Below are positions 16,380 through 39,758 of a stretch of DNA of 64,000 nt, piece by piece. The notes beneath the pieces were generated by a model that searched no databases, was not told the origin of the DNA, and saw only the letters and a list, made by a program, of their open reading frames with translations. The stretch is from an uncultured Colwellia sp. (GTDB lineage Bacteria > Pseudomonadota > Gammaproteobacteria > Enterobacterales > Alteromonadaceae), in NCBI GenBank assembly GCA_913058245.1, contig CAJXQJ010000001.1, positions 62,001 through 126,000 on the forward strand. Reading direction: 5' to 3'. A program made the translations under genes and the position numbers. Positions within the stretch are counted from its first letter, which is position 1, and each line of letters starts with the position of its first letter.

Positions 16380-19295
16380 ATGACTACTCAATCAAATGAC
16401 TCTTTATCTTTAGCTGAATTAGAGCAAAGACAAGATTTTATTCGTCGTCACATTGGTCCGAATGACGAGCAAACGCAAGCCATGTTAACGGATATTGGTG
16501 CTGACTCTGTTGATGCACTTATTGATGAAATCGTACCAAGTGATATTCGTTTAGCTGATTTACCTGCTATCGAAGAAAGCAAAACAGAAGTTCAGGCATT
16601 AGCTGATTTAAAAGCAGTAGCAAATCTAAATAAAGTTAACGATACCCACATCGGTTTAGGTTACTACGGCACACTAACACCAAACGTTATTTTACGTAAC
16701 GTGTTAGAAAATCCAGGCTGGTACACGGCATATACGCCATACCAACCAGAAATTGCGCAAGGTCGTTTAGAGTCATTATTGAACTACCAGCAAATGTGTT
16801 TAGATCTAACCGGTTTAGACCTAGCGTCAGCGTCACTATTAGATGAAGGTACCGCAGCAGCAGAAGCAATGGCCTTAGCTAAGCGTGTATCTAAAAATAA
16901 GAAATCAAACTTATTCTTTATTTCTAGCGACGTATACCCACAAACTATCGACGTTGTTAAACAACGTGCCGAAATGTTTGGTTTTGAGCTTGTTATCGCG
17001 CCAGCTGACGAAGTAGTTGATCACGACGTATTTGGTGCCTTATTACAATACCCAAGTGCTAGCGGTGAAGTACGTGATATTTCAGCGCTTATTGCTAAAG
17101 TACACGAGAAAAAAGGTATTGTAGCAGTAGCGGCTGACATTATGAGCTTAGTGCTATTAAAAGCACCGGGCGAATTAGGTGCTGATGCAGTTATCGGTTC
17201 AAGCCAACGTTTTGGTGTTCCTATGGGATACGGCGGACCACACGCAGCATTCTTTACTACGTCTGACAAATACAAACGTTCATTACCAGGCCGTATTATT
17301 GGTGTATCTAAAGATACTCGCGATAACCCAGCACTGCGTATGGCAATGCAAACACGTGAACAACATATTCGTCGTGAAAAAGCCAACTCAAACATTTGTA
17401 CAGCACAAGTATTATTAGCGAACATGGCAGCGTTTTACGCGGTTTACCATGGTCCTAAAGGCTTAAAAGTTATTGCTGAGCGTATTCACCGCTTTACTGA
17501 CATTTTATGTTTAGGTACAGCAAGCAAAGGCTTAACGGCAATTCACCAGCACTACTTTGACACATTAACGTTCAACGTTGCTTCTCTTGAAGGTAATAGC
17601 AAAGAAGAAATTGTTGCTCGTGCATTAGCTAACAACGTTAACCTACGTACCGACGTTGACGGCCAAGTAGGTGTTTCATTAGATGAAACCACCACTCGTG
17701 AAAGCATCGACCGTTTATTTAACATCTTATTAGGTGAAGGACACGGCTTAGACGTTGCGGCACTTGATCAGCAAATACTTGATTGTGGTCATTCGTCAAT
17801 TCCTGCTGAATTACAACGTGAGTCAGCAATTTTAACGCACCCAGTATTTAACTCGTATCACAGTGAAACTGAGATGCTACGTTACATCAAAAAGCTTGAA
17901 AACAAAGATTTAGCATTGAACCACTCAATGATCTCTTTGGGCTCTTGTACCATGAAGCTAAATGCAACTGCACAAATGATCCCTGTATCATGGCCTGAAT
18001 TTGCTAACATGCACCCGTTTGCGCCTGTTGACCAAGCTCAAGGTTACAAGCAGATGATTGATGAGTTAGGCGACTGGTTAGTTGAATTAACTGGTTACGA
18101 CAACATTTCAATGCAACCAAACTCAGGTGCGCAAGGTGAATATGCTGGCCTTATCGCTATTCACAAATACCACGAAAGCCGTGGCGACGCACACCGTAAC
18201 ATTTGTTTAATTCCAGCTTCTGCACACGGCACTAACCCAGCGTCAGCGCAAATGGTTGGTATGAAAGTGGTTGTGGTTGACTGTGATAAAGAAGGTAACG
18301 TTGACATGGACGACTTACGTGCGAAAGCAAGTGAGTTAGCCGACAACCTTTCTTGTATTATGATCACATACCCGTCAACTCACGGTGTATACGAAACAAC
18401 AATTGCAGAAATTTGTAATATCATTCATGAACACGGCGGCCAAGTTTACCTTGACGGTGCAAACATGAATGCACAAGTGGGCGTAACATCACCAGGTTTC
18501 ATTGGTGCTGACGTTTCTCACTTAAACTTACATAAAACATTCGCTATTCCACATGGCGGCGGTGGCCCAGGTATGGGACCTATAGGCGTTAAATCGCACT
18601 TAGCACCATTCTTACCTGATCATTCATTGATTAACATCACTGAAGACAACAAAGGTAATGGCGCGGTATCAGCAGCACCATACGGTAGTGCCGGTATTCT
18701 TTGTATCTCTTACCTATACGTTGCCTTATTAGGTAAAAAAGGTGTAACAGATTCAACCAAATACGCGATTACTAATGCCAACTACTTAGCGACTAAGTTA
18801 AGCCAACATTACCCAATTTTATATGCAGGTAAAAATGGCCGTGTTGCTCACGAATGTATTATCGACTTACGCCCAATTAAAGCCGAGTCAGGTATTACTG
18901 AAGTGGATATGGCAAAACGCTTAATGGACTATGGTTTCCATGCGCCAACGATGTCGTTCCCAGTAGCGGGTACGTTCATGATTGAGCCAACGGAATCTGA
19001 ATCAAAAGTTGAACTTGACCGTTTCATTGAAGCGATGATTTGTATTCGTGACGAAGTGCGTAAAGTAGAATCTGGCGAGTGGTCAAGCGACGACAACCCA
19101 TTACACAATGCACCACATACTATGGCTGACATTACCGGCGAGTGGAACAGAGCGTATTCTATTAAAGAAGCGGTTTACCCAGTAGCTGCAGTGGCAGAAA
19201 ACAAATTCTGGCCAACAGTTAACCGTATTGATGATGTATACGGGGACCGTAACTTGATTTGTTCTTGTCCGAGTGTGGATACGTATAAAGACTAG
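16380..19295 (+). CDS. gcvP: Glycine dehydrogenase (decarboxylating), P protein
   Basis: This PLP enzyme decarboxylates glycine and loads the aminomethyl group on GcvH. The 971-residue protein is the fused single-chain P protein. Its N-terminal half has RRHIGPND (about 19-26), [14 protein letters not shown] and [14 protein letters not shown]. Its catalytic C-terminal half has the PLP lysine in [20 protein letters not shown] (about 720-740). The last codons ([11 protein letters not shown]) are also the apparent attachment signal for the Tn7-like elements. Element 1 begins 10 bp after the stop codon, and a diverged copy of this 3' end occurs at 28003-28084. Confidence 0.98.
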
Positions 19296-19300
19296 TTTTT

Positions 19301-19305
19301 TTAAA
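19301..19305. repeat. Target-site duplication, left (TTAAA), element 1
   Basis: TTAAA immediately precedes the TG terminus of element 1 and is repeated directly after its other terminus at 26182-26186. A 5-bp duplication is the hallmark of Tn7-like transposition. Confidence 0.85.
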
Positions 19306-19372
19306 TGGGGGTATGTAATTAAGTTGGTTAACGATTTAATTAAGATGGTTAACTTAGATAAGTTGGTTAATT
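19306..19372 (+). repeat. Left end of element 1 with three TnsB-type sites
   Basis: Three copies of a 12-14 bp motif lie at about 19319-19332 (TTAAGTTGGTTAAC), 19340-19353 (TTAAGATGGTTAAC) and 19359-19372 (ATAAGTTGGTTAAT), spaced 20-22 bp. The array matches the left end of element 2 in order, spacing and sequence, which identifies the same end type. Confidence 0.85.
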
Positions 19373-19390
19373 TCCCATTATAATAATTTT

Positions 19391-19421
19391 AAAGGCGAAC
19401 CAGAAGTGGTTCGCCTTTTTT
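19391..19421 (+). terminator. Terminator carried inside the left end of element 1
   Basis: AAAGGCGAACC pairs with GGTTCGCCTTT around AGAAGT and is followed by a T-run. The same hairpin occurs at 26202-26234, where the original gcvP downstream DNA resumes, and at 28183-28216 inside element 2. It would terminate gcvP transcripts that enter the element. Confidence 0.9.
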
Positions 19422-19814
19422 ATTTCTCTTACTCGTACTTTCTAACTAAAGTTGAAAGCCTGACATATGCACGATGAGTTTGAAGGTCATAGTCCTTTAC
19501 GATTTTTTTTAGATATTAATTAGTATGTTTACTTAACTTTTCAGCAAAAAAATAAAACCACACGTTAGTACGAATAATGAACAATACTTTCTTTTTCTAG
19601 AGTTTTAGTTAATAATGATTGTGCTTGTTTTTTATACAGCGAAGGATTGTGATGAAATACTTTAGGGAGCAATGTTTACTAAATAAATCAAGCGTTATTT
19701 GGTTATCTACATGCCTTTGTAACTCACCTATCACTACCCCTTCAATTAATAAAAATTGCAAGCATAATCTTTTTAAGAACTCGAACCCGTTTTTTAACTT
19801 AGGCATGACCAAGT
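19422..19814. other. Left subterminal non-coding region of element 1
   Basis: This 393-bp AT-rich stretch precedes the cargo operon and probably holds its promoter. A 57-codon ORF from ATG 19652 overlaps the next gene, but its translation shows no recognisable feature and I do not support it. No further end repeats were found. Confidence 0.5.
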
Positions 19815-20291
19815 ATGACTATTAAAAGCTTATCTGTTCAAGAAATCAATGATATGAGGAGATCAAAAGTTAGACCTTATGTCACCTATTTGTTAATTAC
19901 TATTTACGCTTTAACTACATCATTCGCAATTATATGGCTATTGTTAAATGGACAATCTGATAACGCGCTAGCGTTGCTATCCGGTCTTTCTGCCGTATCT
20001 ACAGGGGTCGTTGGCTTTTGGTTCGGCACTAGAGGAAATGTTAGTAATAATATTACTAAGCCCAGCATCATATCTAAACCATCTCCACAGGTATCAAAAA
20101 CACCAATAGAAAAGGTTACAGCCTTATTAACTTTTCATAAAAAAACTTTGAATGATCTTATTCCAATATTGGATGTAAATTTAGAAAGTGAAGTCAAAGA
20201 GTTATTGATCAATTGCACAAAACTTACAGAAAAGCAGAGAGTGGATATTGCGGCATTACTGAAATCATCAGTTAAGAATATTTTTGGATAA
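19815..20291 (+). CDS. Hypothetical membrane protein with FWFG motif
   Basis: I do not recognise a characterised family. The 158-residue protein has a short polar N-terminus and two membrane segments (about 22-44 and 50-72). The second ends in the motif VVGFWFGTRG that is common in small phage- and island-borne membrane proteins. A soluble C-terminal region (about 80-158) is predicted to be helical and would face the cytoplasm. It is the first gene of the element 1 operon, 35 bp before the lipoprotein gene. A similar GFWFG motif recurs in the protein at 22034. Confidence 0.7.
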   Translation: MTIKSLSVQEINDMRRSKVRPYVTYLLITIYALTTSFAIIWLLLNGQSDNALALLSGLSAVSTGVVGFWFGTRGNVSNNITKPSIISKPSPQVSKTPIEKVTALLTFHKKTLNDLIPILDVNLESEVKELLINCTKLTEKQRVDIAALLKSSVKNIFG

Positions 20292-20326
20292 TTAAAACAA
20301 ACTGTCATGTGAAATCGGGTAACAAT

Positions 20327-21787
20327 ATGGACATAAAAACTAAGAAATCACTTTTTATTATTATAACAAGTATAACTTTGCTTGGTGGGTGTGCTGATTT
20401 GACGCATTTTAATGATAAGGAAACTTTAGAAACTAATGACGCTGTATTTATAGATGCTAAGCAAAGAGCCGTTTTTAACGTTACAAAATTTAAGTTTGAT
20501 GATAGCGGAGTTAAGAGAGTTGAATGGAGTGGAATTTGTGCAGAGCCAGCCCCAGATGCAATTTCTTCTTTGGCAGCCACTTTAGGTGTGGATTTGAGTG
20601 TCGCAGATAAAGGTACGTTAGGCGTATCTCAATCACTCAGTGAAGCAGTTGGGAATATAGGTATAAGAACAGCAGCTATACAGGCATTAAGGGATATGAT
20701 GTACAGGAATTGTGAAGCATATGCCTTGGGAGGTATTTCCGATATGGGTATCGAAACTTTGCAGCGTAGATTTCAAAGTACGATGGTAGCAATCCTTGCA
20801 ATCGAGCAATTAACTGGTGCCGTTAAAGCACCGTCTGTAGTTTTGACTGGTACTTCTTCGGCAGGCTCATCCGATGCAATTTTGAAACTAACAAATGATG
20901 CAAAAACTACTTTGTCTGCTCTGAATAATGCAACAGATGATGAAGCTAAAGCCAAGACTCTGTATGAAGAAAAGAAAAAAGCAAATGATGATACTTCCCA
21001 AAAAATAGCTGATGGTCAAACTGCGGTTGATACTATAAACGCCAAGAATCCTCCTTCGACTGATGCTGCTGATGTAGCTGCTCTTGCAGAACATAAAAAG
21101 CTTGAAGAGAATTTAGTTGTTCAAAAGAAAGAGATGGAGGATGCAGAAAAAGCCTATAAGGAAAGCCAAGAAGTAACCAAGAAAAGTAAACAGGCTTATG
21201 ATGCAATTGAATCTTCGAGAGTTGCAGCCGTTACTGGTGGAGGAAAAACAAGCACTTTTGGCAAAATTGAATCGATTACGAAACCTGAACCCTTGTCGGA
21301 TGCTGCTATCCAGACTGTATCAAGTACAGTTTTAAGTATAGTTAAAGCGTCCATGGCAGTAGATTATGAAAAAGAAGTTTGTACTACACTTGTAGGGCAA
21401 TACCCGAATGAAGAAGCAAAAGAGAAGTCTCCTTTATGGGCATGTACAAACTTGCTATTAATTTCTCCTGATAAAGCTAAATCAGATGAGTCTAGAAATA
21501 CATTACTTGGTGTAATGGTTGGAGACCCTAAAGCTATAAAAGCATTTTCACAAAGCAACCTCATGTCGAGTAAAGTGAGTGAGATTCTATTAAAAGTCGC
21601 ACCATCTAAGCAGTTATCTAAATCATTGTGGAATACATTAGTTGATGATTCAAATTTGGAAAACTCAGTAGAAACATCGTTAAAAACATTAGCCGATTAT
21701 CAATCAGTTAAGGGCATGCTGGATTATTACGCTGTATCGAGTAGTAAGTACTCAATTATTGATAAATTGCATAGCAATCTAAAATAA
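20327..21787 (+). CDS. Large coiled-coil lipoprotein, unknown function
   Basis: From ATG 20327 the protein has 486 residues and opens with a lipoprotein signal (FIIITSITLLGGCADL) whose Cys follows the lipobox LLGG. The body has an Ala/Lys/Glu-rich coiled coil (about 195-300) flanked by helical domains, and it ends without a membrane anchor. It should sit on the periplasmic face of a membrane. An upstream ATG at 20309 would add six residues ahead of the signal and is less likely. Neighbours on both sides are small membrane proteins, suggesting an envelope complex. No homologous family is recognised. Confidence 0.75.
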   Translation: MDIKTKKSLFIIITSITLLGGCADLTHFNDKETLETNDAVFIDAKQRAVFNVTKFKFDDSGVKRVEWSGICAEPAPDAISSLAATLGVDLSVADKGTLGVSQSLSEAVGNIGIRTAAIQALRDMMYRNCEAYALGGISDMGIETLQRRFQSTMVAILAIEQLTGAVKAPSVVLTGTSSAGSSDAILKLTNDAKTTLSALNNATDDEAKAKTLYEEKKKANDDTSQKIADGQTAVDTINAKNPPSTDAADVAALAEHKKLEENLVVQKKEMEDAEKAYKESQEVTKKSKQAYDAIESSRVAAVTGGGKTSTFGKIESITKPEPLSDAAIQTVSSTVLSIVKASMAVDYEKEVCTTLVGQYPNEEAKEKSPLWACTNLLLISPDKAKSDESRNTLLGVMVGDPKAIKAFSQSNLMSSKVSEILLKVAPSKQLSKSLWNTLVDDSNLENSVETSLKTLADYQSVKGMLDYYAVSSSKYSIIDKLHSNLK

Positions 21788-21800
21788 CAAGGAGTCAAAA

Positions 21801-21989
21801 ATGGAGACAATGGTTATTAAGGTCGTAAACAGTGGTGCAGAAGAAGAGGTTGCAGTAGCTGAGTTATTAGGTGGCGGTTTTACTATTACTTACCAAAATA
21901 GGTCTAGCCTCACAGCTATTGATGCCACAAAAGTTGGCGGAGATGAGACCATTTATAATGACACATGTGTTGTTATTGGAGTTAAATAG
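21801..21989 (+). CDS. Small hypothetical protein (62 aa)
   Basis: This 62-residue soluble protein (METMVIKVVNSG...) follows the lipoprotein gene by 13 bp and has a good AAGGAG site before its ATG. The sequence is beta-rich with Gly-Gly-Gly and a hydrophobic end (CVVIGVK). No family is recognised. Operon position and ribosome site support translation. Confidence 0.6.
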   Translation: METMVIKVVNSGAEEEVAVAELLGGGFTITYQNRSSLTAIDATKVGGDETIYNDTCVVIGVK

Positions 21990-22033
21990 TTAGATTTTTT
22001 ATTCAACTAAAAAATATATAAGGAAGTTGAAAA

Positions 22034-22666
22034 GTGGAAGTTACTCAATTAGAAAAATGGAGCAGCTTGGATAAAGCTAAATTACTTGTCTCTTCTCTAG
22101 TTCCTTTGCTTATTCTATGTATTGGATTTTGGTTTGGTCACCTTGAATCTGAAAGGGCAAATAGTTCAAGGGTGGCAGCATTAAAGTTTGAACAATATGA
22201 AATATTGGGTAAAGAAGTAAATTCTATTTTTTCATATCTTTATTATGTTGGTAATTGGAAGGAAATGACCCCGGTTGAAGTCCTACAAAGCAAACGAACA
22301 GCCGATACCATTTTTTATACTTATGAAAGTATGTTTTCAGATGAGTTCAAGGCTGTTTATCATGATTTCATGAAATTATCTTTTAAAACTAGAAATGGTT
22401 GGGGGAAAGATGCAAAGATTAAAAGTAACTTTAGATATAGAGTTGGGTTATTTTCTTTTTTTGTACCTGGAAATGAAGGGGAGCTTACTAAAGTTGAGTG
22501 GAATAATGATTGGGAACAGCTATTTGAGACAGATTACATTACAAGAGTTGTGGAATTAGATCCAACAGACAATTTGATTCACGGAACCCCCCAACAGCAC
22601 GGAAAAGATTTAGCAAAAACATATAACTCATTTAAAAAACAAATTGCAATAGAGCTAAAATTTTAA
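22034..22666 (+). CDS. Single-pass membrane protein, unknown (210 aa)
   Basis: The 210-residue protein has one clear membrane segment at about 15-35 that ends GFWFGHLESERANSSR. The rest is a soluble domain rich in aromatic residues. The start codon is GTG or an adjacent codon in context AAGGAAGTTGAAAAGTGGAAG; GTG at 22034 is used here. The membrane segment and FWFG motif echo the first gene of this operon. The layout resembles small phage-inhibition proteins only in a general sense, and no function is claimed. Confidence 0.65.
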   Translation: MEVTQLEKWSSLDKAKLLVSSLVPLLILCIGFWFGHLESERANSSRVAALKFEQYEILGKEVNSIFSYLYYVGNWKEMTPVEVLQSKRTADTIFYTYESMFSDEFKAVYHDFMKLSFKTRNGWGKDAKIKSNFRYRVGLFSFFVPGNEGELTKVEWNNDWEQLFETDYITRVVELDPTDNLIHGTPQQHGKDLAKTYNSFKKQIAIELKF

Positions 22667-22701
22667 GTGCTTAAAGAATAATACTCTATATTGGAGGTTT
22701 T

Positions 22702-23097
22702 ATGGATAATTTGTTAAGCGGATTATCGCTTATGTTCTTTGAATTACAAATTGTAAATCAAAACAATAATGAAAATCCTGTTTTAGTTTTCTCTATTGCC
22801 TGCTCTATAGTTGGTGCTATTGCCGTATTGCTTGATTTGACATTTTACGTGCTTAGAGGGCGCTCGTTATTTGATTTAAACCATGGGAAGTTAACTGTTG
22901 TTTTTTTGATTGCTTGGTCTTTTGGTGCACTTGTTATTGGTTGGGTAGGGCAGTTAGCTAGTATATTTGTAGTGAGTGTATCAGCAACGGTTCTTGTTGG
23001 GTTTACTTGGCCATTAATTATAACGAAGTATTTAAAAACAAAAGCTGATGAAGAGTACGCGAGTGAACCAGAGCAAGAAATAGCGGAGGAAGAGTAA
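22702..23097 (+). CDS. Three-helix membrane protein, unknown (131 aa)
   Basis: The 131-residue protein has three to four hydrophobic stretches (about 27-50, 60-85 and 88-110) and a short acidic tail ending EQEIAEEE. A GGAGG site lies 6 nt before the ATG. It ends 1 bp before the next gene, indicating translational coupling. No family is recognised. Confidence 0.65.
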   Translation: MDNLLSGLSLMFFELQIVNQNNNENPVLVFSIACSIVGAIAVLLDLTFYVLRGRSLFDLNHGKLTVVFLIAWSFGALVIGWVGQLASIFVVSVSATVLVGFTWPLIITKYLKTKADEEYASEPEQEIAEEE

Positions 23098-23098
23098 A

Positions 23099-23494
23099 AT
23101 GGCCTTTTATTCACAACTATTCGATAAAAGCTCTGATTTTAGAAGTGAATCAGAAATTAAAAACTTAGTAAAAAAGTCTAAAAATTATAAAAATGAAGAT
23201 GTAGCTAATTCGAAAATACTTAACTTTTTCAATACATCTAAACAAAGAAGCTACCTCGTTACGACTGATGAAATGGTGTATTGCATTGTTGATGATTCTC
23301 GTAAAAATGAAGCAAAGATAAACTGGTCAATGGGTAAAGAGTTATTTGCTAGCCAATCAATTACCTTAAAGGATAAAACAGTACGTACAGGCTTAGTCAA
23401 CTTTGGAGAAAAACATAAGAACTGGTTATATACTAAATCAATATTTAACAATGAAGACAATATGAAAAACTCAATTTCAAAATTATTGAGTTGA
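23099..23494 (+). CDS. Hypothetical soluble protein (131 aa), possible PH-like fold
   Basis: The 131-residue protein has a charged helical N-terminus (about 1-45) and then alternating hydrophobic strands (RSYLVTTDEMVYCIVDD, about 50-66) that vaguely resemble small bacterial PH-like domains. This resemblance is weak inference. It starts 1 bp after the preceding membrane protein's stop, with GGAGG in the upstream coding end, so the two are coupled. Confidence 0.6.
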   Translation: MAFYSQLFDKSSDFRSESEIKNLVKKSKNYKNEDVANSKILNFFNTSKQRSYLVTTDEMVYCIVDDSRKNEAKINWSMGKELFASQSITLKDKTVRTGLVNFGEKHKNWLYTKSIFNNEDNMKNSISKLLS

Positions 23495-23594
23495 AAATTA
23501 TATTACTAATTAAACGTTAGACGGGACTTCTATATAGTTTGAATGAATAAGGTTAATAAGAAGTTCACTGTACACATTAGGAACGTTTATCAGA

Positions 23595-24611
23595 ATGTCG
23601 AATGATAGCTTATGGTATAAAACTATAAATTTTGAACTTGATATTGAACCAGAAATATCCACTCAGGATGTTTTTCCTGAACTAGAGTCAATCATTATAG
23701 AAAATGAGCAAGTGAATCTAGATAAGTCAATTCAAGGTAGCTGGAAGAATATTTTAATAGTAGAAGATGATGAATACCTAGCTAAGGATTATGGGAACCA
23801 ACTCGAAGCATTTGGCTTTAGAGTTTCATATGCATTCAATGCCGATGAAGCTGTTAAGTTAGTATATTATTATGGATCATATATCAGCGTTATTGTTCTA
23901 GATATTCGAATGGATAAAGGGAAGTACCTTAGTGATTTTAGTACTTCTAATGGCCTGAAAACAGGAATATCACTCTCTAAGGAAATTAGAGAATATGTCC
24001 CTCAAGCACTTATAGCTGCGTTATCTATGTCAAAAGATTATTTAGATCAAGCATGGTTTATTGCGAATGATAGACATTTTTTTTGTAGAAAAGATAGTTT
24101 TCCTCCAGATGTTTTTGCAAAGTTTATTTATGAATTGGTCTCAGTAGTGAAAACAGATGGGGTATTATCTGGTAAGGATTCAAGTGTTTCAGATCTAATT
24201 GGTCAAAACGATGAAGTTTCTGATAATAGAAATATTGAAATTAATTTGCAAAAGGAGGTAGTAATGGGTAATAAATATGTATCTCATGGACCAGTCGGTG
24301 CTATGGGAGAAAACGCTACAGCACATGATTTTACCATTAATCAAATTTGGGAAGATAACAAATCGAATATAAATTTAACTAAATTATCTGAAGAATTGGT
24401 CATCTTAAGAGAAGCATTAGCTGCCGATGCAACCGATAATGATTTTATTGATATAGGTAACATTGTTAGCGCAGAACAAGAAGCTAAAAAAGAAAACGGG
24501 TCTAAAGCGATTGAGTTCTTAAAAAAAACATCAAAAAAGACACTTGAAATAGCTGAGAAAATTGGAGTAGGTGTAGCAGTGGCAGCAATAAAGGCTACCA
24601 CGGGGCTATAA
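23595..24611 (+). CDS. Response-regulator receiver protein with a C-terminal conflict-associated domain
   Basis: The 338-residue protein has a short acidic N-terminus, then a receiver domain (about 50-175): IVEDDEYLAKDYG supplies the acidic pocket, VIVLDIRMD gives the phospho-acceptor Asp near residue 102, and the Lys is in LSMSKD. A linker (about 180-223) leads to a 115-residue C-terminal domain (HGPVGAMGENATAHDFTINQ... to IGVGVAVAAIKATTGL). From memory, similar tails occur on various bacterial conflict proteins; I cannot name the domain. There is no DNA-binding domain or partner kinase nearby. An AGGAGG and in-frame ATG at residue 224 would let the C-terminal domain be made alone. Confidence 0.8.
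   Translation: MSNDSLWYKTINFELDIEPEISTQDVFPELESIIIENEQVNLDKSIQGSWKNILIVEDDEYLAKDYGNQLEAFGFRVSYAFNADEAVKLVYYYGSYISVIVLDIRMDKGKYLSDFSTSNGLKTGISLSKEIREYVPQALIAALSMSKDYLDQAWFIANDRHFFCRKDSFPPDVFAKFIYELVSVVKTDGVLSGKDSSVSDLIGQNDEVSDNRNIEINLQKEVVMGNKYVSHGPVGAMGENATAHDFTINQIWEDNKSNINLTKLSEELVILREALAADATDNDFIDIGNIVSAEQEAKKENGSKAIEFLKKTSKKTLEIAEKIGVGVAVAAIKATTGL
24264..24611 (+). CDS. Internal translation product: C-terminal domain alone (115 aa)
   Basis: Inside the receiver-fusion gene, AAAGGAGGT at 24251-24259 lies 5 nt before an in-frame ATG at 24264. The resulting 115-residue protein would be exactly the C-terminal domain, starting just before its first conserved motif (HGPVGAMGENA). This is a stronger ribosome site than the one for the full-length gene. 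Separate translation of a domain from an internal start is known for Cas11-type subunits; applying that here is inference. Confidence 0.5.
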   Translation: MGNKYVSHGPVGAMGENATAHDFTINQIWEDNKSNINLTKLSEELVILREALAADATDNDFIDIGNIVSAEQEAKKENGSKAIEFLKKTSKKTLEIAEKIGVGVAVAAIKATTGL

Positions 24612-24946
24612 AATTGGTTATGAAAAATTTACTTAATTATAGTTTTTAATTACTTCTCTATAAATTTTAATTGAATTAACCAACTTAAATGTTTTAGGTA
24701 TTGAAAATCTAGTCTACTTTTCACCAACTAACACTGTATCTATGGAGCAAATTTGATTGGTGTAATTAAGCTTGTGATCAGTGGCAATCTATTTATAACG
24801 GACTATACTTCTACGTCATTTAAAATGCTTTAAAGAGAAAGGAGGAAGCAAAGTATTAAGAATACAACAATAAAGCCGTTGTATCCGAATTTAGACGTGG
24901 GACATCGGCATATGGATTATAGCCAAAACTAAAAAGGAATACTCAA
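24612..24946. repeat. Relic of a second right end inside element 1
   Basis: The gap between the operon and the protease gene contains, at about 24661-24690, an AAATTTTAAT stretch followed by ATTAACCAACTTAAAT. This closely resembles 26142-26170 at the true right end (AAATTTTAAT then ATTAACCAACTTAATT). The terminal 11 bp expected beyond it are not conserved. It suggests that an earlier, shorter element ended here and that the protease was added between the old and new right ends. No ORF is supported. Confidence 0.55.
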
Positions 24947-25867
24947 ATGTCTATTAAGATTCAAAACATGGGCTGGCTTCGCGACCTACCTGACTTTCGT
25001 GATCATAATATTGACACCGATACTACTCCAGTATCTCTCCAGGCACTAGGACAGGATAGATCTATTAAAGAAATGTCTAATGAGCTTGGTATATCCGACG
25101 CTGCGTTTGATGCACCACGTAGAAGAGATTTGACAAGGTGGTGTTCACCGATTGAAGATCAAGAAGATATTGGCTCTTGCACTGCAAATGCAGGAGTTGC
25201 ATTGATCGAATATTTTGAAAGGCGAGCTTTTGGTCGTCATATTGATGCATCGCGCTTATTTCTGTACAAAGCAACGCGTAATTTGATGCATTGGCAAGGT
25301 GATACAGGAGCATATTTGCGCACAACAATGGCTGCGATGAAGTTATTTGGAGTGCCACCCGAAAGTCATTGGCCTTATGATACGGCAAATTATAACGAAG
25401 AGCCTTCTTCGTTTTGTTATTCTTTCGCGCAAAACTATCAAGCGCTGCGTTATTATCGTTTAGATCCTAACGGTATTGATCGAAATAAGTTATTGCAGCG
25501 CATAAAAATGAATATATCTAGAGCCTTACCAGCAATGTTTGGCTTTACAGTTTATCAGTCAATAGCACAGGCTAATCAAGATCAAGGAAATATTCCATTC
25601 CCATCCGCTGGTGAAAATGTTCGCGGAGGTCACGCAATAGTTGCGGTTGGCTATGATGATGATAGAGAGATTGTTAATACGTTTAGCAATAACAATGATT
25701 CGACAACGGGAGCATTATTGATACGAAACTCATGGGGCGAAGGTTGGGGTGAGGAAGGATATGGTTGGCTTCCTTATGAATATGTACTACAGGGGCTAGC
25801 TGTAGATTGGTGGTCTTTGTTACGTAATGAATGGGTAGATACCAAGCAGTTTGGAGTAAACGAATAG
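24947..25867 (+). CDS. Papain-family (C1) cysteine protease
   Basis: The 306-residue protein has the papain catalytic layout: the Gln-Cys region in IEDQEDIGSCTANAG (Cys near 78), His in GGHAIVAVGYDDD (near 228) and Asn in IRNSWGEGWGEEGYGWLPY (near 261). No signal peptide or membrane segment is visible, so it is probably cytoplasmic or secreted by another route. The first 60 residues may be a short prodomain or a recognition region. An AAAGGAAT site precedes the ATG. It is the only gene between the relic and true right ends of element 1. Bacterial C1 proteases of this short form occur in scattered islands, and the target is unknown. Confidence 0.85.
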   Translation: MSIKIQNMGWLRDLPDFRDHNIDTDTTPVSLQALGQDRSIKEMSNELGISDAAFDAPRRRDLTRWCSPIEDQEDIGSCTANAGVALIEYFERRAFGRHIDASRLFLYKATRNLMHWQGDTGAYLRTTMAAMKLFGVPPESHWPYDTANYNEEPSSFCYSFAQNYQALRYYRLDPNGIDRNKLLQRIKMNISRALPAMFGFTVYQSIAQANQDQGNIPFPSAGENVRGGHAIVAVGYDDDREIVNTFSNNNDSTTGALLIRNSWGEGWGEEGYGWLPYEYVLQGLAVDWWSLLRNEWVDTKQFGVNE

Positions 25868-26096
25868 TTGCCCTTAATTGGTGAAGCCACTTGATGTGGC
25901 TCATTGAATAAAAAAATATGACTCATCAGTCGTAAATTAATTTATAGTGATTAAAGTTTAGCTTCAAGGAGTTAACTCAGATTGCAGGAGTGAGTTGTCA
26001 AACGAGAAACTATTGTTCTTAGAGGCTTTTTAAGTAGATTGAAAATAATATGTTTCTTTTCGATTATATTTAGGAAATTCACCTTCTGCTCTAAAG
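25868..26096. other. Non-coding stretch before the right end of element 1
   Basis: A 229-bp AT-rich region with a GCCACTT/GATGTGGC-type hairpin just after the protease stop, possibly its terminator. No gene or further repeat is seen. Confidence 0.4.
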
Positions 26097-26181
26097 TTAT
26101 TAACCAACTTAAATACGAGGACTTTTATTATTCAACCTTAAATTTTAATGGATGATTAACCAACTTAATTACACGTACTCA
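26097..26181 (-). repeat. Right end of element 1
   Basis: Inverted TnsB-type sites lie at about 26097-26112 (ATTAACCAACTTAAAT), a weaker one near 26132-26142 (CAACCTTAAAT) and the terminal one at 26154-26170 (ATTAACCAACTTAATT). The terminus ACACGTACTCA follows at 26171-26181. Its reverse complement mirrors the left terminus, and TTAAA follows directly. Confidence 0.85.
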
Positions 26182-26186
26182 TTAAA
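26182..26186. repeat. Target-site duplication, right (TTAAA), element 1
   Basis: TTAAA follows the CA terminus and matches 19301-19305. Downstream the sequence continues as apparent native gcvP flank with the terminator at 26202. Confidence 0.85.
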
Positions 26187-26201
26187 TTGTAGATTTGAAA
26201 T

Positions 26202-26234
26202 AAAAGGCGAACCAGAAGTGGTTCGCCTTTTTTT
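26202..26234 (+). terminator. Original gcvP terminator, displaced by element 1
   Basis: AAAAGGCGAACC pairs with GGTTCGCCTTTT around AGAAGT, with a long T-run. Removing element 1 and one TTAAA would place this hairpin about 25 bp after the gcvP stop codon region, so it is the likely native terminator. Confidence 0.85.
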
Positions 26235-26324
26235 GTATCCAATACTTATTAACTCAAATGTGTGGCGATATGATTTAACTAGAGATTTTGTTAGAGATAA
26301 AATTTAATGAATTAACGAGGTCAA

Positions 26325-26574
26325 ATGCCAAAGAAAACATTAACAGCAGAATTTAAACGTGAATGTGTAGAGTTCGTCATTGTTCACGGTTATGAACATA
26401 AAGATGTAGCCACAGCGATGAATGCCGGATTATCGTCAATCCAGCGTTGAATTAGCCAATATAGAAGAGAGCAACAAGGTGTTACGCCTAAAGCCAGTAC
26501 ATTAACATCTGCGCAAATCCCTATTCAGGAATTAGAAAAACAGGTTAAACAACTAAAAAAGTCTCCAAGTTTAT
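26325..26574 (+). pseudogene. Decayed IS3-family orfA (transposase HTH subunit)
   Basis: Reading from ATG 26325 gives MPKKTLTAEFKRECVEFVI and continues through SSIQR, the helix-turn-helix region of IS3/IS911-type OrfA. An in-frame TGA at 26448-26450 stands where the family has TGG (Trp). After it the frame continues ISQYRREQQGVTPKASTLTS and QELEKQVKQLKKSP, the usual leucine-zipper part. OrfB and the inverted repeats are absent, so this is a dead fragment. Confidence 0.8.
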
Positions 26575-26832
26575 TTGACGTTACATTTACTGTAGGTTCA
26601 AGACTCACGCTCAATGGTAAAGCCTTTAGTCTGCTTGTTCTTTCACATTACATCATATGAACTATATCTGTGATTTAGATCCTGTACCAGAGTTGTAGAT
26701 TAGAGCAATGCTGAAATATCAGTGAAAAATCAGTGAAAAGTCATCGAAAAGTCAGGTGTTTTTAACTTTGTTCCATTAGATTCCGTTTACCCCTTCGCTG
26801 CATAGCGTTTTTTTACTCTTAAGGATTTAATA
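26575..26832. other. Non-coding stretch after the IS3 remnant
   Basis: No gene is seen. Near 26717-26757 there is a short imperfect tandem repeat of the type CAGTGAAAAATCAGTGAAAA. The end of the stretch should hold the promoter of the esterase gene. Confidence 0.4.
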
Positions 26833-27960
26833 ATGATTACCTCTATTAGAGCCACTTTTATTTTTGTACTTTTATTTGTTTCCAGTTTTTTGGCCCATGC
26901 TGCTAATAAAGAGCCTGTAGTTTCTCTTGGCGAAAGCTCGTCGATTCATTCGAAAGCACTTGATAAAGAAGTCCCTTTATCTATTCATTTGCCAGAAAAT
27001 TATGATAGTTCGAAAAATAACTATCCTGTTATCTATATGATGGGATCTGATTTTAAAGCGCGCTTTGCATTATTAGCTTCTACCCTTGATGTTATGGCGG
27101 ACAGGCAAATACCACCGATGATTTTAATAGGGGTAGATTTGCCAGATGGCAACTTTGTTTTGGTGCCAAACAGGCAAACCGCCGATACTAAATCGCCGGA
27201 TACTTACTTAGCGTTTGTGCAAAATGAACTTATCCCGCACGTTGACGCTACGTACCGTACCGCGCCATTTAGAATGTTATTTGGTGCTTCCAATAGTGGA
27301 TTTTTTAGCACTTATGCGCTACTGAAAAAACCAGAATTGTTTAACAGCTACATGGCAAGCAGTCCAATGTATGCTTGGGCTCCAGAAGTGCTTAAATCGC
27401 AGATCGAGCAAGGGCCGTTGAAAAAGCTAGGTGAAAAACGCTATCTTCATATTATTTATAGTGATGATGACTTTGTCGAGGTGACGGAGTCTGTGCCTGA
27501 TTTTACTGATACCTTAAACAAACATAAACCGCAGAAACTAAGTTATCATGTTACCAAGTTGGTTAATGAAGGGCATGTACCAGCGACTGATTTTACTTCG
27601 CTGTTAATGGCACAATATCCAAACTTTAATGCCCATGAAACCCTCGACTCCGTAGAAAAAATACAAAGTCATTTTGCTAAATTGTCGAAAAGCTATGGCT
27701 ATACAATGCTCCCGTCAATGTCTATGGTATTTGATCTGGGTACAGACCTCGTACGAGCCAAAGATTTCGCTGCGGCAAAAAAAACATTCCATTATGCGTT
27801 AAAAATTTATCCTGAAAGTAAGCGGGCACATTTTGGAATGGGGTATCTACATCGAGCGAAGGGCAATATAGAGGATGCAAAAATAATGTTTAAAAAGGCG
27901 CTGGCCATAGACCCTGATTATGGGTTGGCAAAAAGGTTCTTGGAAAGGTTAGAGAGTTAA
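26833..27960 (+). CDS. Secreted alpha/beta-hydrolase esterase with C-terminal TPR
   Basis: The 375-residue protein has a signal peptide (about 1-23, ending FLAHAANK) and an alpha/beta-hydrolase domain of the IroE/esterase-D type (COG2819-like). The nucleophile serine lies in the GASNSGFFS elbow (about 157-165) and an acidic residue in YSDDDFVEV. Residues 295-375 contain two tetratricopeptide repeats (ALKIYPESKRAHFGMGYLHR and ALAIDPDYGLAKRFLE). It should act in the periplasm on an ester substrate that is not evident. It lies between the two elements and is followed by a strong hairpin, so it may be older island cargo. Confidence 0.82.
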   Translation: MITSIRATFIFVLLFVSSFLAHAANKEPVVSLGESSSIHSKALDKEVPLSIHLPENYDSSKNNYPVIYMMGSDFKARFALLASTLDVMADRQIPPMILIGVDLPDGNFVLVPNRQTADTKSPDTYLAFVQNELIPHVDATYRTAPFRMLFGASNSGFFSTYALLKKPELFNSYMASSPMYAWAPEVLKSQIEQGPLKKLGEKRYLHIIYSDDDFVEVTESVPDFTDTLNKHKPQKLSYHVTKLVNEGHVPATDFTSLLMAQYPNFNAHETLDSVEKIQSHFAKLSKSYGYTMLPSMSMVFDLGTDLVRAKDFAAAKKTFHYALKIYPESKRAHFGMGYLHRAKGNIEDAKIMFKKALAIDPDYGLAKRFLERLES

Positions 27961-27969
27961 GTTATTTGA

Positions 27970-28004
27970 GGTCAGAGTAAAGAGGATAAAAGTTTACTCT
28001 GACC
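27970..28004 (+). terminator. Hairpin after the esterase gene
   Basis: GGTCAGAGTAAA at 27970-27981 is matched exactly by TTTACTCTGACC at 27993-28004, an 11-nt loop between. It lies 9 bp after the stop codon. There is no long T-run, so it may end transcription only weakly or protect the 3' end of the message. Confidence 0.6.
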
Positions 28005-28084
28005 ATCGGTTAATTGTATCGATGATGTATACGGGGACCGTAATTTGATTTGCTCTTGTCCGAGTGTAGCACTTGTAAAGGTTA
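28003..28084 (+). pseudogene. Remnant of the gcvP 3' end (second attachment site)
   Basis: This stretch aligns without gaps to gcvP 19212-19293. Over 28007-28067 I count 55 of 61 identical bases, and most differences are at third codon positions. The translation [19 protein letters not shown] matches the gcvP C-terminus except Arg to Cys. No upstream gcvP sequence is present. Element 2 begins 30 bp after the shared GAGTGT, against 29 bp for element 1 at the real gene, so the fragment appears to have served as the attachment site of element 2. Confidence 0.88.
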
Positions 28085-28092
28085 GTAACTAC

Positions 28093-28097
28093 TTGAT
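28093..28097. repeat. Target-site duplication, left (TTGAT), element 2
   Basis: TTGAT directly precedes the TGAGG terminus and is repeated directly after the other terminus at 53765-53769. Confidence 0.88.
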
Positions 28098-28166
28098 TGA
28101 GGATCATTAATTAAGTTGGTTAACGATTTAATGAAGATGGTTATTTTAATGAAGTTGGTTAATTAA
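28098..28166 (+). repeat. Left end of element 2
   Basis: Three TnsB-type sites lie at about 28110-28123 (TTAAGTTGGTTAAC), 28131-28143 (ATGAAGATGGTTA) and 28150-28163 (TGAAGTTGGTTAAT). Order and spacing match the left end of element 1. Confidence 0.85.
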
Positions 28167-28182: not shown

Positions 28183-28216
28183 AAAAGGCGAACCAGAAAT
28201 GGTTCGCCTTTTTTGT
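28183..28216 (+). terminator. gcvP-type terminator carried inside the left end of element 2
   Basis: AAAAGGCGAACC pairs with GGTTCGCCTTTT around AGAAAT with a T-run. It sits at almost the same distance from the element edge (85 bp) as the equivalent hairpin in element 1 (85 bp), and differs from it by one loop base. Confidence 0.88.
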
Positions 28217-28365: not shown

Positions 28366-29742
28366 TTAATCGTGATAGACAAAGCCTAATTCACCTATCG
28401 AATCCCTGACTGCCACCATATCTTCTTTTGCAAGTAAATCATGATCTAATGCTAAGACCAACCTCTTCTTGGCACGAGTAAGAGCGACATAGACTTTTTT
28501 CCATTCTTTATTAAAGCGTTTTGCTTTGCTAATACCATTTTGGGTTAAGTATTTCAGGGTATTAGAGCTAAGTATGATTACACACGTATCAGCATCCAAT
28601 CCTTTTATAGATTCGATACTTTGGACTTTAAATTGAACGTCATTTTTTGTGCAAGAATTGCACAGCTCATATAATTGGGCGAAATGCTGCTTATTAAGCG
28701 TCAATGAATGCCGAGTAATGAGGTTACCTATGGCTCGGTTATTATCTTCTTTGACTATATCGTCCATAAAGTCAGAAAGAGCGGCTTTAACAAACAAACC
28801 TTTGTCTTTCTTGTGGTTAGAATCACGAATCATTTCCTCGATCTCTCGTGGAAATGCGTGTTTGTATTTAGATGAAGTTGTATAGCGACCATTTTTTTTG
28901 TCGATACAAACAAGTTGATTTGTATCGATGTAGCTCGTTAGTAGCTCGTCGTATCTGCCATCAGTCGATTCTATGTACATGAGTTCACCGACCTCTTCTG
29001 ATAGTGACTCTTGTTGCTGATCTTCATAACAGAAACTGTTTGATAGCCTTAAGATCTCTGAAGGTACTCGTTTGGTTTTATTGTTTATTGGTAGTATGGT
29101 TGTGTATTCATTTGGAGCTATTTTTTTTATAAAAGTATCAAGATCTTGGGGGAACTTGATTGCTTGTTTTGGATCTCCGATCATGTACACGTAAATATTA
29201 TTGCTGCCTAGCACTTCGAAAAAGCTGAGAGCATCGTTATCTAAGTCTTGGACCTCGTCGATGAATACCTTATCAAAGCAACTCTCTAAAATAGCCAATA
29301 ATCTGCGAACTTTTGCTTTCTTCAATTTGTTGTTGTACTTACTGTTGGTTTCATCAACTATTTGTTTAGAAATGCTGTAGACACTCTCTGCATGAATTAC
29401 GTTCTTATCCTTTAAACGTTTTATGTGCCAGTTTTTGAACCTAACATTACTTGGTAACATCATTATTGATGTGTCGTTATACACATCACCTAGAGTGAAT
29501 GATGAGAATGGGTAGATGATTTCGTTCAACAGGAAACTATGTACGGTCTGTATACAGAGGTTCGGCGGAATAAAGCCATGTTGTTTGATTATCTCTTGTT
29601 CTATCTTCGCTGTTGCTGAGTTTGTGTATGTCAGTGCAAATGTATTTTTGTGACCAGTACAAGCTTTGATATGAGCTATCAAAGTCTTTGCTAAGCCATA
29701 AGTTTTTCCCGCACCAGCTCCAGCAATCTGGACTTCAATCAT
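28366..29742 (-). CDS. gajB: Gabija GajB: UvrD/Rep-like superfamily 1 helicase
   Basis: This is the helicase subunit of the Gabija anti-phage system. The 458-residue protein has Walker A QIAGAGAGKTYG (about 5-16), motif Ia-like TYTNSATAKIE, Walker B FIDEVQDLDND (about 158-168), GDPKQAI (motif III) and the C-terminal motif VI VALTRAKKRL (about 422-431). The length suits GajB (about 490 in the reference system), shorter than true UvrD. It overlaps the upstream gajA by 4 nt. In Gabija, GajB works with GajA to sense and cut phage DNA when nucleotides are depleted; that role is from the known system. Confidence 0.88.
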   Translation of the reverse strand: MIEVQIAGAGAGKTYGLAKTLIAHIKACTGHKNTFALTYTNSATAKIEQEIIKQHGFIPPNLCIQTVHSFLLNEIIYPFSSFTLGDVYNDTSIMMLPSNVRFKNWHIKRLKDKNVIHAESVYSISKQIVDETNSKYNNKLKKAKVRRLLAILESCFDKVFIDEVQDLDNDALSFFEVLGSNNIYVYMIGDPKQAIKFPQDLDTFIKKIAPNEYTTILPINNKTKRVPSEILRLSNSFCYEDQQQESLSEEVGELMYIESTDGRYDELLTSYIDTNQLVCIDKKNGRYTTSSKYKHAFPREIEEMIRDSNHKKDKGLFVKAALSDFMDDIVKEDNNRAIGNLITRHSLTLNKQHFAQLYELCNSCTKNDVQFKVQSIESIKGLDADTCVIILSSNTLKYLTQNGISKAKRFNKEWKKVYVALTRAKKRLVLALDHDLLAKEDMVAVRDSIGELGFVYHD

Positions 29743-31436
29743 GACAGAGCCTCGATAACCTCTGCGATGTGGGCTGGTAACTTGATATCTAATGGGTTCT
29801 TTTCCTCAACCATCGCATCACATACATCCAGCATTCTTGCTGTTTTACCATTAATCATGTGATCGGACACTTCTTTAAGATTACCTTCCATATCAAATAA
29901 GCCATTTAGCAAGGCTAGGTTGTCTTCTGCTTCTACTAAATCAATTTCAAGAGTGTAATTTGTCGTTGTTCTTACAGTGACATTCTCGTGGGCTGCATCA
30001 TAAGCATCATGTCTGGCTTTAGCTGCTTCTGAATTGTCATAATCACGGATAACACCAATTTTCTTGCTCTGGTTATCTTTGTTCAAGGTGAGCCATATAT
30101 CTAAGAAAGTGGTGTAACCACGCTGACCAATTGGAATAATATCAATATCGTTAAGTGCTGGTTGTTTTGATAAATATGTGCTGATCAGCATTTCTTCAGT
30201 AGGCCCCTCTACGAGAATGACTTTGTTTGCGAACAGAAGCTTTAATATGTCGAAATTAGGTCTCTTTCTTAGGTAGTCAACTAGCTTAGTTGGTGCATCG
30301 GACAGACTAATTGCTTTTTCGCCAGTGAAAGCTAGAACATTTGAGATTTGCAGTTTGTTAATGATCGACGGGTTATGGGAAGAAATGATAGTTTGCACAA
30401 GCGAACCACTGTTGCTTGAGCTTTTCTCTATAAAATCTCTTACTAAACGAAGGTTATTAACGCTCAAGTGTGCTTCTGGTTCTTCTATACAGCATAAGTT
30501 GAATGTATCACCACATGACTTGTAGTAAGCAAACAGAATGAGTATGTAAATAAGGTTTCGTTGCCCCAAGCCTTTTTGGTACAGAAATTCATTACCGTAT
30601 TTCAAAGTGATATTCGATAAGATGTTCTTCAAGTTAGGCAGGTTAGGAGTACACTCAAGCTGCTCGATAATACTGTCGTAGTTTTCAAAATCTTCATTAG
30701 TTCCAATGACTTTGTCGAATGTTTCGGTCTTTTCAATAGCATTAAAGAACTCAGAGTATGCTGTGTTGATCTGACCTTTATCATCATCGTCTAGTGTATT
30801 CATAAGCAGCTTTGTGAAAATACTATTGGACTTCATTGAACTGCTTTCTGAGAAGTCATCTCGCTCGGCATTGATACTATGGACACTGACGTGTTTTAAA
30901 TCACTGTATGCAATAGACTTTTCGTTGTTCACAGATATGACTTGGTAGTCGTATAGCTCAACGGGGAGAGTAAACCAGTTAATATCATCAAGAGTCTTAC
31001 CAGCGAGCGATTTCTTCACGACCTCAAGCAAGTCTTTGTCGTCTTTAGGCTTAAAGTCATATCTTATTTGGTAACTTTCTTCATCGCCATCAGCAACAAT
31101 CCACTTAGCTAGCAGCGCTGTTTCATAAGCGTCTTTCGGATCAGCGAACTCCACGGTTACTGACACCTTAGGGACCTTCTGAAGTTGATTATCTTCAGCA
31201 TCGCCATTGACGACTGACGTTAGAAAATCAATAACGGCATCTTTGTTGATGTCAGAAACACTCAAACGCTTCTGGTTGAAGTCTATTTGATTGCCGCTTA
31301 ACGGTAATGAAAGTGCGGTGAAAAAGTTCGTCTTACCTGTATCGTTTTCACCAATGACAACTGTTAGCTGTTGAAGTTGAGCTTCGAAAGAGCGAAAGCT
31401 ACGGTAGTTGTTGATTGTTACCTTTCTGATATACAT
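29739..31436 (-). CDS. gajA: Gabija GajA: OLD-family ATPase-TOPRIM endonuclease
   Basis: This is the nuclease subunit of Gabija. From ATG 31436 the protein has 565 residues, close to reference GajA. The N-terminal ABC-type ATPase shows FRSFEAQLQQLTVVIGENDT with Walker A GENDTGKTNFF (about 29-39), an ABC-like signature region, and Walker B CIEEPEAHLS (about 312-321). The C-terminal TOPRIM domain shows VILVEGPTEE (about 405-414) and the acidic VIRDYDNSEAA. An in-frame ATG at 31448 is possible, but GGAAA spaced before 31436 and the N-terminus MYIRKVTINNYRSF favour the latter. It is the first gene of a two-gene operon, with an 11-G tract in its upstream region. Confidence 0.88.
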   Translation of the reverse strand: MYIRKVTINNYRSFRSFEAQLQQLTVVIGENDTGKTNFFTALSLPLSGNQIDFNQKRLSVSDINKDAVIDFLTSVVNGDAEDNQLQKVPKVSVTVEFADPKDAYETALLAKWIVADGDEESYQIRYDFKPKDDKDLLEVVKKSLAGKTLDDINWFTLPVELYDYQVISVNNEKSIAYSDLKHVSVHSINAERDDFSESSSMKSNSIFTKLLMNTLDDDDKGQINTAYSEFFNAIEKTETFDKVIGTNEDFENYDSIIEQLECTPNLPNLKNILSNITLKYGNEFLYQKGLGQRNLIYILILFAYYKSCGDTFNLCCIEEPEAHLSVNNLRLVRDFIEKSSSNSGSLVQTIISSHNPSIINKLQISNVLAFTGEKAISLSDAPTKLVDYLRKRPNFDILKLLFANKVILVEGPTEEMLISTYLSKQPALNDIDIIPIGQRGYTTFLDIWLTLNKDNQSKKIGVIRDYDNSEAAKARHDAYDAAHENVTVRTTTNYTLEIDLVEAEDNLALLNGLFDMEGNLKEVSDHMINGKTARMLDVCDAMVEEKNPLDIKLPAHIAEVIEALS

Positions 31437-39352: not shown

Positions 39353-39758
39353 ACCTTCCAGAAAAACTAAGTTGAAATTGAGAAAATTAGCAAAGCGTTA
39401 TGAAGTTTCTATAAATATTGAAGAAAGTGAAAATGAAAAAGTATATGTAAGGGTCATGAAAATACTCCAATCAGACTACGCGATGAATTTTCAAATTAGT
39501 GACAGAAGTTCATTATACGAAGAAATCGAAGAAAAGGTTGGTGAGGTTATTATGTGTTACAGAATGAAGTTACCAATAGTTTTGTTTAATGAACTAAATA
39601 AACAATTTAAGCAAAAACACTCATTAATTGCTCGGTGGTACAGGAGACCTAAGGCACCTTTGGAAGGGAAGCGCCCAATTGATGTGTTAAAAGAAGATGG
39701 CGGCCTTGATAAAGTCATGGGCATGCTAGAACGTATGAAAACCGGCGACTTTTCTTAA
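39327..39758 (+). CDS. MbcA/ParS/Xre-type (DUF2384) protein
   Basis: The 143-residue protein starts MPVRAVNFKPSRKTK (ATG 39327, chosen over an upstream in-frame start because AGAGAGC precedes it). The C-terminal 45 residues (ARWYRRPKAPLEGKRPIDVL and then GGLDKVMGMLERMKTG) match the toxin-binding domain of MbcA/ParS/Xre antitoxins. No RES or MbcT toxin gene lies beside it. It overlaps the end of tnsD and precedes a phosphatase-like gene by 3 bp. It may be an element maintenance or regulatory factor, equivalent in position to the small orf after tniE in Tn6022-type elements. Confidence 0.7.
   Translation: MPVRAVNFKPSRKTKLKLRKLAKRYEVSINIEESENEKVYVRVMKILQSDYAMNFQISDRSSLYEEIEEKVGEVIMCYRMKLPIVLFNELNKQFKQKHSLIARWYRRPKAPLEGKRPIDVLKEDGGLDKVMGMLERMKTGDFS

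Follow-up and report, generated by a model that had tools for sequence, protein, structure and literature searches.

The 64,000-nucleotide stretch analysed here (the window, to whose positions all coordinates refer) comes from an uncultured Colwellia sp. and carries, on the plus strand, the glycine dehydrogenase gene gcvP (16380-19295; Pfam GDC-P at 3.4e-192, GcvP2_C at 5.8e-59), behind whose 3' end lie two Tn7-like elements. Element 1 (19306-26181; 6,876 bp), recognised by its ends and its target-site duplication, holds cargo only, and element 2 (28098-53764; 25,667 bp) is a transposon of the dual tniQ-tnsD type with its own tns genes. An earlier reading, made from the sequence alone, had proposed the gcvP 3' end as a Tn7-like attachment site, used twice, and the coordinates that it gave agree with ours. 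Namely, the hexamer GAGTGT ends at 19276 in the real gcvP end and at 28067 in a 60-bp remnant of the gcvP 3' end (28008-28067, plus strand), the second attachment sequence, leaving 29 bp before the start of element 1 at 19306 and 30 bp before that of element 2 at 28098. Both elements are flanked by the 5-bp duplications that this reading had reported, and these are exact: TTAAA for element 1 (19301-19305, with the right copy at 26182-26186) and TTGAT for element 2 (28093-28097, with the right copy at 53765-53769).

The two elements also share the same type of end, again as had been claimed. On the gcvP side, three TTAAGTTGGTTAA-type 13-mers stand close together on the plus strand, at 19319, 19340 and 19358 in element 1 (19319-19370; 0-1 mismatches) and at 28111, 28132 and 28150 in element 2 (28111-28162; 0-1 mismatches, except for three at 28132). 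On the far side (26100-26181 and 53629-53764, both minus strand), copies of the 13-mer are inverted and more widely spaced: element 1 has them at 26100-26112 and 26156-26168, together with terminal sequence, and element 2 at 53629, 53682 and 53739. We call these putative TnsB-like sites by their position and repetition. Read as inverted repeats, the terminal 22 bases match at 17 of 22 positions in element 1 and, counted by eye, at 21 of 22 in element 2. A further exact inverted copy of the 13-mer lies inside element 1 at 24676-24688, approximately 1.5 kb before its right end, and is possibly a relic of another far end.

Element 2 encodes, in this order and all on the plus strand, tnsA (32457-33272; Pfam Tn7_TnsA-like_N, 2.6e-10), tnsB (33274-35535; phmmer match to Tn7 TnsB, 7pik, at 2.7e-41, with no Pfam match), tnsC (35528-36943; Pfam AAA_22, 2.7e-10, and TniB, 4.7e-5), a short second selector, tniQ (36946-37908; Pfam TniQ, 8.4e-6, at 26.9 bits against a cut-off of 27), and a longer tnsD, the proposed gcvP selector (37865-39352; Pfam TnsD, 3.8e-22, and TniQ, 4.2e-15). 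What marks this element as Tn7-like is the TnsA-TnsB-TnsC core, a target selector with a TniQ domain and the tandem tniQ-tnsD behind tnsC, along with arrays of TnsB-like sites at both ends, the 5-bp duplication, the fixed distance and the single orientation. A profile built from the TnsDs of 19 relatives matches Tn7 TnsD (8glu) at 5.1e-32, and the predicted structure of the element 2 protein has a low mean confidence (predicted local distance difference test score of 62), being better only in the helical C-terminus, residues 380-480. Among the open reading frames (ORFs) tested there is no TnsE and, in element 2, no Cas effector gene; array-like repeats are absent from element 2 as well, so that the effectors and array of a CRISPR-associated transposon were not found. 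Neither is this Tn7 proper, which inserts behind glmS, both elements of the window being at gcvP sequence. A search with Rfam gave nothing at gathering thresholds within 19000-54500.

The same arrangement recurs in related genomes, to which we refer by G numbers. A relatives set of 98 genomes, the window's own included, has gcvP in 81, and 33 junctions were measured, the window's two among them. In 31 of these 33 (29 in other genomes), the element starts 48-54 bp after the GDRN codons of gcvP and in one orientation, and the compact end faces gcvP in all measured junctions. The proposals that insertion takes place at a fixed distance past a conserved gene end, and that Tn7-like ends would stand near gcvP stop codons in relatives, are both borne out by these counts. 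What is more, over 30 junctions (excluding the remnant and two outliers) the spread is smaller when measured from GDRN (standard deviation 1.49) than when measured from the stop codon (1.95), and the length of the C-terminal tail correlates with the stop distance at r = -0.69 versus 0.29 with the GDRN distance. In other words, where the C-terminal tail of gcvP varies in length, the distance from GDRN holds more constant than that from the stop, the element ends beginning 5-12 bp past the stop. Exact 5-bp duplications are also present in G253, G082, G077, G039 and G006, and, as the duplicated sequences in the window and these five relatives differ (TTAAA, TTGAT, GGTTG, AGCTG, GTTTG and, twice, TTTTT), no fixed sequence is read at the insertion point itself.

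Could such ends simply turn up behind many genes? A strict three-repeat detector, which misses partial ends and one class of ends, the AGAC class, was positive at 29 of the 103 gcvP ends read (105 were fetched, two being unreadable). Restricted to relatives drawn regardless of TnsD, it was positive at 19 of 77 gcvP ends versus 2 of 423 other ORF ends, both of the latter being the gcvP-side end of an element read from the other strand; this is more than chance would give. Likewise, two end sequences, allowing up to 3 mismatches, were found at 11 places in 11 genomes (10 picked for having an end at gcvP, plus the window's own), all of them at the gcvP locus, stacked copies included, with no place in G052 or G037; in the window's own genome, which is 66.9% complete, this end sequence stands only at gcvP sequence. 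A scan of named-strain contigs returned ten loci. Compact ends stand behind gcvP in Thalassotalea marina KCTC 42731, Pseudoalteromonas luteoviolacea S2607 and Alteromonas sp. ALT199, as well as in Alteromonas sp. 1_MG-2023, in Photobacterium angustum ATCC 25915 and in the metagenome-assembled genome DT_4 (G055); the five named strains of this list also have TnsD downstream. Other loci of the scan are those of Aliagarivorans marinus (G202), A. taiwanensis (G130, an outlier in spacing) and Shewanella gelidimarina (G232), the tenth being that of the cyanobacterium Oculatella, which has a gcvP.

The sequence that TnsD would recognise is proposed, from its conservation and its spacing to the element ends, to lie in the conserved part of the gcvP 3' coding end (19206-19268, plus strand). 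In 101 gcvP ends compared, the K, W, P, R and L and both C residues of the conserved C-terminal stretch are invariant; the constancy of DDVYGDRN is no evidence, since this motif was required by the pattern that selected the ends. The window's own genome also has a second gcvP-like gene (G000:C1:57090-57404) approximately 24 kb before gcvP, with 65% identity over the last 104 amino acids, and two gcvP genes are likewise present in G013 and G097.

If TnsD is the protein that selects gcvP, the two should travel together. In 394 genomes of the order (window included), the TnsD profile gave 42 matches at 1e-10, in 39 genomes, and 20 of the 42, one of them the tniQ of G130, share strand and contig with gcvP and follow it at a distance of 7-45 kb. 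Linkage was seen for 18 of the 22 matches at E<=1e-40 versus 2 of the 20 with weaker scores. Four strong matches lack it, those of G100, G073, G215 and G232; of these genomes, G073 and G232 do carry an end at gcvP, on a contig other than that of their TnsD. The window's genome has one full TnsD, its sole other match being the neighbouring tniQ. Linked TnsDs come from seven families of the sampled order (eight with G073), are only 22-42% identical to the window's TnsD, and belong to operons whose tns gene order is common to the relatives wherever the stretches cover it. In an unrooted tree of 37 TnsD rows, those labelled gcvP fall into a 20-row clade, together with G100, G215 and G073, and an 8-row clade, together with G232 and the plasmid pAsa4b; these two clades lie together on one side of the tree, and the nine rows without gcvP linkage form a clade of their own. 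The label was as clustered in 0 of 500 shuffles, so that TnsD phylogeny and site use go together, as the sequence-only reading would have it. On a strict count the label needs 6 changes on the tree, because G073, G232, pAsa4b, G100 and G215 are labelled apart, and the long branches of G164 and G168 make their places unsure. Across the class, 7 of 369 genomes have a TnsD match in a profile search, and in none of the four outside the order is it linked to gcvP (in two, gcvP lies on another contig, one gives only a weak partial match and one none). In G778, one of these four, a three-repeat array (L209, around 14068) lies upstream of a TnsD-profile match and behind a gene end that we take to be that of GlmS. 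This would be a relative that homes to glmS, and it suggests that attachment genes other than gcvP are within reach of the end-finding method.

We therefore put at about 0.9 the probability that a branch of dual tniQ-tnsD Tn7-like transposons, present in marine and other gammaproteobacteria, has its chromosomal attachment site at gcvP. The position and orientation of the elements, their duplications, the linkage between TnsD and gcvP and the terminator-like hairpin discussed below are read directly from the sequence. As to mechanism, the long TniQ-family protein, TnsD, would read the conserved coding end of gcvP and recruit TnsC and TnsAB, and the element would be inserted with its compact three-repeat end toward gcvP, approximately 51 bp past the GDRN codons and 5-12 bp past the stop, generating a 5-bp duplication. 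gcvP would stay intact, its displaced terminator presumably being replaced by one that lies within ~120 bp of the element's start. The second, short TniQ would be the candidate for a route other than gcvP, directed to plasmid targets, and element 1 would be mobilised in trans.

A number of observations weigh against this picture. To begin with, 18 of the 20 TnsD matches weaker than 1e-40 have no gcvP linkage on the same contig, the two that do being G168 and the tniQ of G130. The spacing is broken by G391 (83 bp) and G130 (162 bp), duplications are out of exact register in G142 and G054, the end of G105 has no TG start, and the stretches read showed no far end for most elements. The starts of the ends were moreover set by rule, at 22 or 26 nt before the core repeat, and are checked by duplications only where these are named. 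Finally, in G100 a gene taken to be prs is followed by an end of the same design and, 17 kb downstream, by a stop-bearing tnsD, and the TnsD of G215 falls within the gcvP clade, yet there is no end at the G215 gcvP.

Would a different history account for the data equally well? One could argue that the elements go back to a single old insertion, passed on by inheritance or by homologous recombination through gcvP, so that the site was never chosen again. Remnants of the gcvP 3' end behind gcvP do show recombination at this locus, and some ends within the genus are identical over 26 bp (G005, G006 and G009). Against this stand at least five classes of ends, as judged by eye, duplications that differ and insertion points shifted by a few bases, as well as relatives with empty sites and the low identity of the TnsDs, and we regard such a history as very unlikely. 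Hardly more probable, in our opinion, is that gcvP is picked by another selector, be it the short TniQ or a CRISPR guide, and that TnsD does something else. This would agree with the presence of a TniQ match as well as TnsD at the loci that cover the operon (in G391, the TniQ match is within tnsD) and with the fact that dual tniQ-tnsD elements include CRISPR-guided ones, by the account in PMC10293859. Element 2, however, has neither array-like repeats nor a Cas effector gene among its tested ORFs, and homing at a fixed distance is an established pattern for TnsD, as described for Tn7 (PMC2918618) and for the TnsD of a type I-D CRISPR-associated transposon (CAST; PMC10293859). Homing to gcvP by TnsD is, for these reasons, the reading that we retain.

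It should still be noted that TnsDs of the gcvP type are not confined to gcvP. The sequence-only reading would have been undermined by finding its TnsD clade at unrelated sites; the clade proves to be mostly gcvP-linked, with exceptions in the prs end, a plasmid copy and one other site. In G100 (L173, reverse-complement ~2992), the compact end lies 28 bp, measured by eye, behind a gene with a phosphoribosyl synthetase-associated domain match, a possible further attachment site of this transposon family. The plasmid copy is that of pAsa4b, a conjugative plasmid of Aeromonas salmonicida, which has the same gene order and end type and a GATCT duplication, with no gcvP motif in the 37 of its 182 kb that were read. 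This copy would fit a second lifestyle directed to plasmids, with the short TniQ as a candidate selector. Among plasmid records, 341 have a TnsD match, and two, pAsa4b and pKP19, were examined; the TnsD of pKP19 falls outside the gcvP clades. The detector found no end upstream of TnsD in the stretches of G215, G174, G041, G225, G379, G333 and G164, and none on the G361 and G272 contigs; a looser setting likewise gave none for G041, G164 and G215.

Was gcvP really used twice in the window? That part of the earlier claim stands insofar as there are two insertions at gcvP sequence, and is less secure insofar as the second site is a 60-bp remnant, which may be an older gcvP end that incoming DNA has moved downstream. 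The remnant is identical to the real gcvP end at 55 of 60 positions, four of the five changes being, by eye, at third codon positions. We somewhat favour the possibility that element 2 entered at an intact gcvP and that incoming DNA with another gcvP end, with or without element 1, then displaced that end and left the remnant behind; at any rate, displacement of an old intact end is as likely as insertion at the remnant. In line with displacement, the right flank of element 2 (TTGATATAGAATAATAAAAAG...) resembles by eye the empty gcvP flank of G040, G004, G015 and others, gcvP 3' remnants of varied length lie behind gcvP in G040, G041, G066, G142 and G225, and the remnant of DT_4, on a separate contig, is itself followed by an element end. 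On the other hand, the order of events has no direct evidence, and a 60-bp remnant could well serve as a target by itself, the Tn7 TnsD site being only 36 bp by the description in PMC2918618.

An insertion a few bases behind a stop codon would separate the gene from its own terminator. In the window, a terminator-like hairpin lies inside the gcvP-side end of both elements (19392-19417 and 28185-28210, plus strand), and a terminator beyond element 1 (26204-26229, plus strand) is read, from comparison by eye with the empty sites of G008 and G014, as gcvP's own, displaced. More generally, a hairpin followed by T's is present within the first ~120 bp of 48 of 49 gcvP-side or equivalent ends, the exception being G202, versus 4 of 100 random stretches. 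This set includes the plasmid and prs copies, which indicates that the hairpin belongs to the element end and is not simply that of gcvP; where an end is only partial, the host may have supplied it. Two facing copies of the end repeat form the hairpin in the AGAC class. A role in termination is what this placement suggests, and it would explain how insertion so close behind a gene stays harmless. To go by a 1986 title of Gay et al., Tn7 itself reportedly inserts in the glmS terminator. The interval from element 1 to the gcvP remnant contains, in addition, a transposase-like fragment (26320-26600), by eye the remains of an insertion sequence.

The gcvP end is also a place where elements accumulate, many of them in genomes with no detectable TnsD of this family. 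A second compact end stands close behind the far end of a first element in G253, G039, G006 and G054, the stacked ends being of different repeat classes in G253, G039 and G054 and identical in G006. When 33 relatives were searched with the TnsD profile, 23 had a full or (by eye) partial end at gcvP, and in 18 of these 23 TnsD gave no match at 1e-10. The combination of two ends, a matching duplication and an absence of tns genes is shown only for element 1 and for a 3,669-bp element of G006, whose duplication lies in a run of T's and whose inverted repeats match at only 15 of 22 positions; G002 and G058, which look decayed, retain a fragment of tnsA within the first 20 kb. Element 1 itself has seven plus-strand ORFs of at least 100 amino acids, including one papain-family protease (Pfam) and one ORF with a sub-threshold response-regulator match, and none matching TnsA, TnsB, TnsC, TniQ or TnsD when compared with the Tns proteins of the window and five relatives. 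Accordingly, it either is mobilised in trans or has lost its tns genes. Elements of this kind raise the question of how cargo moves without a transposase of its own, and we hypothesise that they are satellites, decay being a real alternative. A broader and more tentative picture, to which we give somewhat less than an even chance, is that gcvP is a major and long-lived integration hub in gammaproteobacteria. Namely, many TnsD lineages with differing TnsB end types would read the same gene end, the ends would restore gcvP termination, unlike end types would allow stacking, and many residents would be cargo elements without tns genes, satellites that passing autonomous relatives, or helpers on plasmids such as pAsa4b, move in trans.

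How does this relate to known systems? With Tn7 and its attTn7 site at glmS, the elements share TnsA, TnsB, TnsC and TnsD homologues, 5-bp duplications, a single orientation and a fixed distance behind a conserved coding end; they differ in the target, in inserting 5-12 bp past the stop as opposed to about 20 bp as given for Tn7 (PMC2918618), in the second, short TniQ and in having no TnsE among the ORFs tested. Also close are the dual tniQ-tnsD transposons of Faure et al. 2023 (PMC10293859), a group that takes in the branch of the TnsD-homing Tn7017 and of which many are described as having no Cascade; tandem tniQ and tnsD are common to both, and most members of the Tn7017 branch have no Cascade either. 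The gcvP site is not described in the main text of that paper, from which the strings 'gcv' and 'glycine' are absent. Tn7017 and the type I-F3 CASTs with a parE site also home behind a housekeeping gene by a protein of the TniQ/TnsD type, as outlined in PMC11406308, with the difference that element 2 shows no sign of a Cas effector gene or array. Fixed-distance homing by TnsD and dual tniQ-tnsD operons are, in this sense, already known from these three sources, and the attachment sites named in the text of PMC11406308 are glmS, yhiN, comM, parE, tRNA genes, guaC, yciA, ffs and rsmJ.

The remark of the sequence-only reading that gcvP is not among the commonly cited sites agrees with what we found. 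No literature naming it as a Tn7-type site came up in a search that left aside supplementary attachment-site tables and some of the Tn7 literature, in both of which an earlier description is possible; in Benler 2021, gcvP does not occur, and the one passage with 'glycine' concerns merA. Islands at gcvP are not new as such. In Photorhabdus and Xenorhabdus, gcvP is tabulated as a protein-gene integration site of regions of plasticity, with no Tn7-type mechanism stated in that part of the work (PMC3091717), and an island of Pseudomonas aeruginosa ST-1047 differs in being placed inside gcvP and flanked by IS6100, by the description in PMC12607901. Tn7-type homing to gcvP is apparently unlisted, and would add an attachment site to those of Tn7-like elements. 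It also predicts a TnsD with a new DNA specificity, one that could serve site-specific insertion behind gcvP.

Apart from its tns genes, element 2 carries a Gabija system on the minus strand, comprising a GajB-like helicase (28366-29742; PADLOC GajB, 5.3e-210) and a GajA-like ATPase (29739-31448; PADLOC GajA, 1e-282). An ORF that overlaps the end of tnsD (39270-39758) has an Xre/MbcA/ParS antitoxin C-terminal domain, and a similarly annotated antitoxin-type gene lies near tnsD on pAsa4b. Further along, the region 42297-50686 holds three large ORFs (1496, 678 and 563 amino acids) with no Pfam match and at most a weak PADLOC match, adjoined by a PD-(D/E)XK-like ORF and a WYL regulator; it is possible that this region is an undescribed defence module. 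Just beyond element 2, on the minus strand, lies a gene for an ORC-CDC6-like ATPase (53805-55772).

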